A stretch of 64,000 bases of DNA, taken from positions 1 through 64,000 of the forward strand of contig JADLDK010000011.1 in assembly GCA_020846715.1 (NCBI GenBank), given 5' to 3'. Within the stretch, counting starts at the first letter, position 1. Each line of letters begins with the position of its first letter. The stretch is from Armatimonadota bacterium (GTDB taxonomy: Bacteria > Armatimonadota > UBA5829 > DSUL01). The position numbers and the translations under genes were made by a program. The notes below the pieces were generated by a model. It was not told the DNA's origin. It searched no databases and was given only the letters and a program-made list of their open reading frames with translations. Shown here piece after piece: positions 22,840 through 23,939 of this stretch.

Positions 22840-23493
22840 TCACACTCGCGGACGTCTGATAAGGCCGAGGAGCGACACCGCTCCTGTGGCCAGAGCGAGA
22901 AGGCCGCTTGGCTCAGGAACAACTGTCATACGGGCGCCGGTGAGTAGTCCTTTGATGTCGGTATTGGCGTTCATTCCGTCAAAGACTCTCGTCTGATCCT
23001 GGCCAAACGCAGCGGGGATTTGAATGGACGTGCCGGACGTCATCGCACGCGCCGTAAAGCGAAACTCCACGATCTTCAGACCAGTGGGCGAGATAGCGAC
23101 GGGAGTGCCCAGCGGTGCGGCTGCGGTGTACATGAAGGCGCCGTCGTTAATGATATCTCCTGTGATCATATCACGATTGTTGATGCCGCTGGCCTGGTAA
23201 AGCAGACCGTCGAAATCCCACTCCGGCTGCGGGGCACCCATTCCATCTGTGCCAACCTCGGGACGGATCAGAGCGGGATCCCAAGTAAGAATGACGTCCA
23301 TAGCAGACACGAACTCGTCGCTGCCTGTAGTTGACAAGGCGTACAGATCGTAGCCGAGAGTCTCTCCGATATTGGCGGTCTGGGTGATGGGCCTCAGCTC
23401 CAGATTCACAGCAGCCGATGCGCGAAGGCCGCCAGAGCAGATGATTGCAGCAGCAAGTCCGAGGAAGGTGAGAGTCTTGTTCAAAGGATGCAC
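22840..23493 (-). CDS. PEP-CTERM sorted protein with cohesin-like domain
   Basis: 217 residues. An N-terminal signal peptide (about 1-27) is followed by a beta domain whose lead, TANIGETLGYDLYA, and the block VILTWDPALIRPE resemble cohesin-type domains. The C-terminus carries the PEP-CTERM tag: VPEPSGLLALATGAVSLLGLIRRPRV, with the Pro-Glu-Pro motif (residues about 193-195), a membrane helix and a basic end. Exosortase would cut it there and route the protein to the surface or to exopolysaccharide; no exosortase gene is in this window. Start is GTG 23493, with GGAG before it. It has a sigma54-type promoter and a structured leader upstream (see those entries). Confidence 0.9.
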   Translation of the reverse strand: MHPLNKTLTFLGLAAAIICSGGLRASAAVNLELRPITQTANIGETLGYDLYALSTTGSDEFVSAMDVILTWDPALIRPEVGTDGMGAPQPEWDFDGLLYQASGINNRDMITGDIINDGAFMYTAAAPLGTPVAISPTGLKIVEFRFTARAMTSGTSIQIPAAFGQDQTRVFDGMNANTDIKGLLTGARMTVVPEPSGLLALATGAVSLLGLIRRPRV

Positions 23494-23612
23494 GTCCTGT
23501 CTCCTGTAGTATTAACCGCCTGGTGGCTGGCGTTTGTGGGTGTTACTTCTACGGCTGGTTCAGGGTTCAGCCGACCAAAGTCTGACGAATTTGCAGGCGT
23601 CCTTTCGCCTGC
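23494..23612 (-). promoter_or_regulatory. Structured 5' leader of the PEP-CTERM gene
   Basis: From the expected transcription start near 23611 to the GTG the leader is about 118 bases. Three inverted repeats follow one another on the minus strand: GCAGGCG / CGCCTGC around AAAGGA (23593-23612), CGGCTG / CAGCCG around a 10-base loop (23552-23573), and CGCC / GGCG near 23519-23534. The first begins at the start site itself. The string GCGAAAGGACGC recalls the c-di-GMP-I riboswitch, but the rest of that consensus is missing. The function is not known; transcript stabilising or a ligand- or protein-binding leader are possible. Confidence 0.4.
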
Positions 23613-23621
23613 TGTTACTGG

Positions 23622-23637
23622 TGCAACTTCCGTGCCA
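23622..23637 (-). promoter_or_regulatory. Sigma54 (RpoN) promoter of the PEP-CTERM gene
   Basis: Read on the minus strand TGGCAC (23637-23632), five bases, TTGCA (23626-23622). The GG and GC pairs are ten bases apart, as required for -24/-12 promoters. PEP-CTERM genes in other bacteria are known to be controlled by RpoN with the PrsK/PrsR two-component system, so a match at this gene is meaningful. No PrsR or RpoN gene is in the window. Confidence 0.75.
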
Positions 23638-23939
23638 ATTTCGTGAAATGCCTCCAGAAACTGGCAAAAATCAGGTGTCCAGGCTGGCATCCGATTCTTA
23701 ACAGGCGAGAGGACCGTGCGTGGGGCTCAATCGCGATTGGCAGATGTGATACTTGCCGAAATCGCTCCGTGAAACGCTAGAATTCCAGCAGAGCAAACGC
23801 TGATGTCCAGGATTTTCTCACTGATTAGACATTCTGCAGAGGAGACATAGGAAAGGCGCTAACGCTTAGCGAACTTCAGCGTGGAAACTGGTCATTCCAG
23901 ACCCTTGTCCACTAATCTATGACTCTGGAGCGCTTACCA
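23638..23939. other. Divergent intergenic region with a short palindrome
   Basis: Between the PEP-CTERM promoter (minus) and the isomerase gene (plus). An activator site for the sigma54 promoter would be expected here. A palindrome CGCTAACGCTTAGCG lies at 23857-23871, 69 bases before the isomerase ATG, and might be an operator for that gene. I recognise no gene in this stretch. Confidence 0.35.

Follow-up and report, generated by a model that had tools for sequence, protein, structure and literature searches.

A single two-component/sigma54 switch probably controls the PEP-CTERM genes of an Armatimonadota bacterium in two ways, by direct activation of some and by repression of others via redundant, Qrr-like antisense RNAs. 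In this circuit, a histidine kinase and a receiver-AAA+ response regulator would switch on sigma54-RNA polymerase. The response regulator has no DNA-binding domain, and therefore presumably acts from solution on all sigma54 promoters. The sigma54 polymerase would make the mRNAs of a few PEP-CTERM genes, including one in the window, the 64,000-nucleotide stretch of DNA analysed here, and would also transcribe, from four or perhaps five gene copies, a short RNA that ends in a terminator and has the core CAUCUUUUUCUCCUUC. The core of this sRNA is predicted to pair with the start regions of mRNAs from a different PEP-CTERM set, and so to block their translation. With direct activation of one set and sRNA repression of another, one signal would thus swap sorted surface proteins. 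The promoters, the architecture and conservation of the RNA, its complementarity to mRNAs and the co-occurrence of the parts are read from sequence, and from them we infer transcription, repression, a signal and enhancer-free activation. The wider statement, that across this class of Armatimonadota an HTH-less activator turns on one PEP-CTERM set and shuts off another via redundant SD-to-AUG antisense sRNAs, in a Qrr-like circuit for exosortase-sorted proteins, is offered tentatively, as having a little less than an even chance of being right.

If true, the circuit would give a poorly studied phylum a trans-acting sRNA family with predicted targets, and PEP-CTERM/sigma54 control would reach beyond the Proteobacteria and beyond transcription. 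It would also allow sigma54 activation to be examined in a case where no enhancer protein is bound to DNA. The targets are predicted precisely, as the SD-spacer-AUG region of PEP-CTERM mRNAs. A literature search returned no paper joining PEP-CTERM, sRNA and antisense; the combination, the sRNA family and the start-codon antisense core appear to be new in the literature searched.

The window gene and its promoter

The window gene lies on the minus strand (22840..23493), starts with GTG and encodes a PEP-CTERM protein of 217 amino acids with a signal peptide-like N-terminus. The protein is of the secreted type, with a C-terminal PEP, a hydrophobic stretch and a basic tail. Its PEP-CTERM sorting motif (22852..22920, minus) matches TIGR02595 with 20.7 bits in the genome search and 16.7 bits in the protein scan, against a cut-off of 16, and its score against Pfam PF07589 is under that family's cut-off. 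The Shine-Dalgarno sequence AGGAG is found 7 nt upstream of the GTG (23501..23505, minus). The best relatives of the protein are 37-41% identical, with no close orthologue for alignment, and a protein scan of genome contigs found no relative; upstream of the two homologues in the window gene's own genome, no sigma54 promoter was seen.

The promoter of the window gene, TGGCACGGAAGTTGCA (23622..23637, minus), has GG at -24 and GC at -12, agrees with the consensus TGGCACGN4TTGCW and is an exact fit to TGGCACGNNNNTTGCW, 128 nt ahead of the PEP-CTERM GTG. Placement of the C of GC at -12 predicts a transcription start (+1) at 23611 on the minus strand. The promoter suggests that the window gene belongs to a PEP-CTERM sigma54 regulon and is activated directly.

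Sigma54 sites and PEP-CTERM genes across the genome

The 3.2-Mb genome contains ten perfect matches to TGGCACGNNNNTTGCW on both strands, and about 40 genes that score above the cut-off of the PEP-CTERM family. Four of the ten sites are less than 300 nt upstream of a PEP-CTERM gene, at 27 (contig C10), 128 (C11, the window), 147 (C30) and 250 nt (C66) from the start codon. The stretches less than 300 nt upstream of PEP-CTERM genes make up 0.2% of the sequence, and the presence of four of the ten sites in them has p about 4e-9 (binomial). Two more perfect sites are farther from PEP-CTERM genes, by 414 nt (C66, in tandem) and 482 nt (C51), two are ahead of the sRNA (C10:48146 and C63:37215) and the other two are inside apparent coding sequence. 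When one mismatch is allowed, the pattern matches 43 times, compared to 22 for the reversed control pattern, and one such site, on C50, is 86 nt ahead of a PEP-CTERM start codon. Besides the window gene, at least four PEP-CTERM genes are preceded by perfect or near-perfect sigma54 sites. At the few PEP-CTERM loci of relatives examined, no sigma54 matches were found.

Two of these loci are unusual in layout. On C66, one PEP-CTERM gene has a pair of perfect sigma54 sites upstream (C66:4678 and C66:4842; L010 and L011), separated by 164 nt. The perfect site at C51:44680 (L007), 482 nt from its PEP-CTERM gene, is in a region where no gene is obvious, and could drive an unrecognised RNA.

A sigma54/PEP-CTERM regulon has been predicted for Proteobacteria (PMC1569441), and RpoN dependence has been shown for one PEP-CTERM gene (PMC9850573). 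The regulon described here resembles the proteobacterial PrsK/PrsR regulon in that many PEP-CTERM genes have sigma54 -24/-12 sites upstream, at similar distances, and in that the activator is of the two-component type. It differs in that the activator is below the PrsR cut-off and lacks an HTH, that no conserved upstream enhancer motif was found, and that a multi-copy sRNA also belongs to the regulon. The original prediction had claimed a textbook -24/-12 site at the window gene, and this was borne out by a perfect consensus that is one of only ten in the genome. It had also named PEP-CTERM genes as RpoN/PrsR targets in other bacteria; a genome-wide sigma54/PEP-CTERM regulon agrees with this, but the activator is not a strict PrsR, as it lacks the HTH and scores 386 bits against TIGR02915 (PrsR), for which the cut-off is 502.6.

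The leader of the window gene

The window gene was also predicted to have a three-hairpin leader from the expected start, either an RNA stabiliser or a riboswitch, that could be shared across the regulon. The stems are present, all on the minus strand. Hairpin 1 (GCAGGCG-AAAGGA-CGCCTGC; 23593..23612) has 6-7 bp and starts at -1/+1, and with +1 at 23611 it therefore begins at the predicted 5' end of the transcript. It is followed by hairpin 2 (CGGCTG...CAGCCG; 23552..23573) and by a weak hairpin 3 (CGCC...GGCG; 23517..23532). Such an arrangement might be expected of a specific element common to sigma54 PEP-CTERM genes, such as a 5'-end stabiliser hairpin or a riboswitch, but the structure does not go beyond chance. 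The leader from +1 to the start codon folds with z = -1.2 compared to shuffled sequence, hairpin 1 does not stand out significantly from shuffles or from the upstream regions of other genes, and hairpins 2 and 3 are at chance level. Stems of at least 7 bp are common: 20% of dinucleotide shuffles have one, as do 55% of the 118-nt upstream regions of other genes in the genome. A slightly longer stretch, including promoter-side bases, folds with z = -2.1.

The position of hairpin 1 at +1 is exact, but it is a single case. The leaders of the other sigma54-driven PEP-CTERM genes show no common length (about 17, 76, 137 and 240 nt), and a strong hairpin beginning at +1 is absent from all of those compared. 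With lengths from 17 to 240 nt and no common fold, the leader is therefore not a regulon feature. In an Rfam search, no family reached its gathering score on the window leader. A regulon-wide leader element is thus very improbable; neither a structured leader nor a riboswitch common to these genes is supported, and the window leader is an ordinary 5' UTR. A match to SNORA55 in Rfam over the promoter and leader (23587-23678, minus; E 1.6e-4), with 30.7 of the 45 bits of its gathering score, was taken as chance.

A putative multi-copy sRNA behind sigma54 promoters

The RNA element common to the sigma54 regulon is, as judged from sequence, a trans-encoded sRNA and not the leader. Five copies were located in the genome (G000), at C10:48146, C20:3366, C23:3393, C23:3216 and C63:37215 (L108-L112). 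The intergenic promoters of four copies are perfect sigma54 sites (C10:48146 and C63:37215) or near-perfect ones (C20:3366 and C23:3393), and the fifth copy, in tandem on C23, is without an intact sigma54 promoter. After each of the four sites comes the same GGAAACCAAA..ATCTTTTTCTCCTTCTGTCA, with a G+C hairpin and a run of T downstream; the 18-nt core is identical in these four copies. The predicted RNA has a length of 60-120 nt and ends in an intrinsic terminator, and the copies, with their terminators, fold with z of -2.8 to -4.4 compared to shuffles. The sRNA has no Rfam match at the gathering threshold.

A sequence model of the sRNA finds matches in the three genomes of the same family and in the majority of the class; in the other classes of the phylum that were searched, it gave no convincing match. 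A scan with the core pattern gave a match in one Armatimonadetes MAG, WAS_Bin_18. By a stricter promoter-plus-core search of fetched loci, 34 distinct copies behind the consensus TGGCACGATTCTTGCA were counted across the class, with 1-5 per genome. The core forms the 3' arm of a hairpin at the 5' end (GAGAAAA-loop-UUUUCUC) in many relatives, and this hairpin loses stability when the 5' arms are shuffled (Stouffer z -8.3, uncorrected for relatedness). A longer subtype of the sRNA, of about 110-120 nt (L135, L140-L146, L173), has a conserved middle element, AAGTGTTGTGG, between the core and the terminator.

Predicted targets of the sRNA

The reverse complement of the core reads GAAGGAG-AAAAAG-AUG, which has all the parts of a translation start region, namely a Shine-Dalgarno sequence, a spacer and the AUG. 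Outside the sRNA genes, the genome has a single perfect match to GAAGGAGAAAAAGATG (C41:121526) and a single match with one mismatch (C5:46545), and both end at the ATG of PEP-CTERM genes; two of the matches with three mismatches (C23:10340 and C17:46479) likewise end at a PEP-CTERM ATG. In G010 and G012, genomes of another family, the only non-sRNA match to TGAAGGAGAAAAAGATG is again at a PEP-CTERM ATG. In a small sample of other PEP-CTERM starts from relatives, the pairing energy with the sRNA core from the same genome is -17 to -29 kcal/mol for most.

Pairing energies extend the result to the whole PEP-CTERM set, with gene starts chosen by a heuristic. Energies below -20 kcal/mol were calculated for 14 of 42 PEP-CTERM starts versus 4 of 339 controls (p 1e-11), the control genes being those of the window and of 20 other stretches, which together cover about 14% of the genome. 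The PEP-CTERM starts also outpair the controls when all candidate starts are considered (p 7e-7). Only about a third of the PEP-CTERM starts pair strongly with the sRNA, and the six sigma54-driven PEP-CTERM genes are all outside this group, compared to 14 of the 36 others within it, a trend only (p 0.08). The absence of sigma54-driven genes from the strong targets suggests two gene sets. As the core can act as a generic anti-SD sequence too, targets beyond the PEP-CTERM set are likely.

As the core includes CUCCUU and is similar to the 16S tail, the sRNA might instead be a general anti-Shine-Dalgarno RNA that damps many mRNAs, with PEP-CTERM genes prominent only through their strong Shine-Dalgarno sequences. 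This is unlikely, since the PEP-CTERM excess persists after regression on 16S-tail pairing, used for Shine-Dalgarno strength (p 1e-8), and is also found among strong-SD genes only (p 5e-10), and since the complementarity runs through the spacer to the AUG. The 5' arm of the sRNA, GAGAAAAACAU, resembles the target start region, and in many relatives the anti-start core folds against an SD-like 5' arm, which would suit an sRNA that activates PEP-CTERM mRNAs, or that buffers another RNA as a decoy, rather than one that represses. We regard this as quite improbable, as perfect cover of both the Shine-Dalgarno sequence and the AUG would most simply act as a ribosome block. The intrinsic terminator at the 3' end of the short RNAs might also be that of attenuator leaders for downstream genes, with no action in trans. 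However, the copies occur in tandem arrays of two or three between unrelated genes, and therefore look free-standing, and the downstream genes are often in the opposite orientation; attenuation is scarcely credible.

The proposed repression by a free-standing antisense RNA recalls the Qrr RNAs of Vibrio, which are multi-copy, sigma54-driven sRNAs under LuxO (PMC2680268, PMC8043402). Both systems have several redundant, short, terminator-ended sRNAs with sigma54 promoters, a response-regulator activator and a conserved pairing core. The arrangement is therefore Qrr-like, with multiple sigma54-driven sRNAs, a conserved pairing core and a terminator, and with repression predicted from complementarity. 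The sRNAs differ from Qrr in that they match no Rfam family, and so are not assigned to the Qrr family, and in that they belong to the phylum Armatimonadota. In addition, their core is antisense to the SD-AUG region of surface-protein genes, and the activator is without a DNA-binding domain.

The activator and its co-occurrence with the sRNA

The genome has a single copy of rpoN (C5:61246) and one true sigma54 activator (C44:56919; L099:1474-2673), a receiver-AAA+ protein of 399 amino acids that best fits AtoC/NtrC-type models and whose gene adjoins that of a PAS/GAF histidine kinase. The protein terminates after the AAA lid, with no C-terminal Fis-type HTH, and the HTH is missing from the activator in every genome of the class examined. 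Four orthologues from other classes were read, and these have long C-terminal tails of HTH length. No common enhancer motif was found in the 250 nt upstream of ten sigma54 sites, the result to be expected of an activator without DNA binding. The activator of G000 also has GSFTGA instead of GAFTGA.

FlgR from Helicobacter and CtcC from Chlamydia are HTH-less sigma54 activators. The activator described here is similar in that it consists of a receiver and an AAA+ domain without a C-terminal DNA-binding domain, and is the sole activator of one sigma54 regulon. It differs in that the regulon consists of PEP-CTERM genes and sRNAs, rather than flagellar genes, and in that the absence of the HTH is common to the class genomes examined.

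The activator and the sRNA tend to be present or absent together. The sRNA was detected in 21 of the 23 class genomes with the activator, and in none of the five without it (G008, G009, G013, G021 and G025; no match below 1e-3). In G011 and G019, no sRNA was detected, though the activator is present. In G013, which has neither the activator nor the sRNA, a remnant of the rpoN DNA-binding domain is interrupted by two stop codons (G013:C43:31741-31884), and the whole system looks to have been lost.
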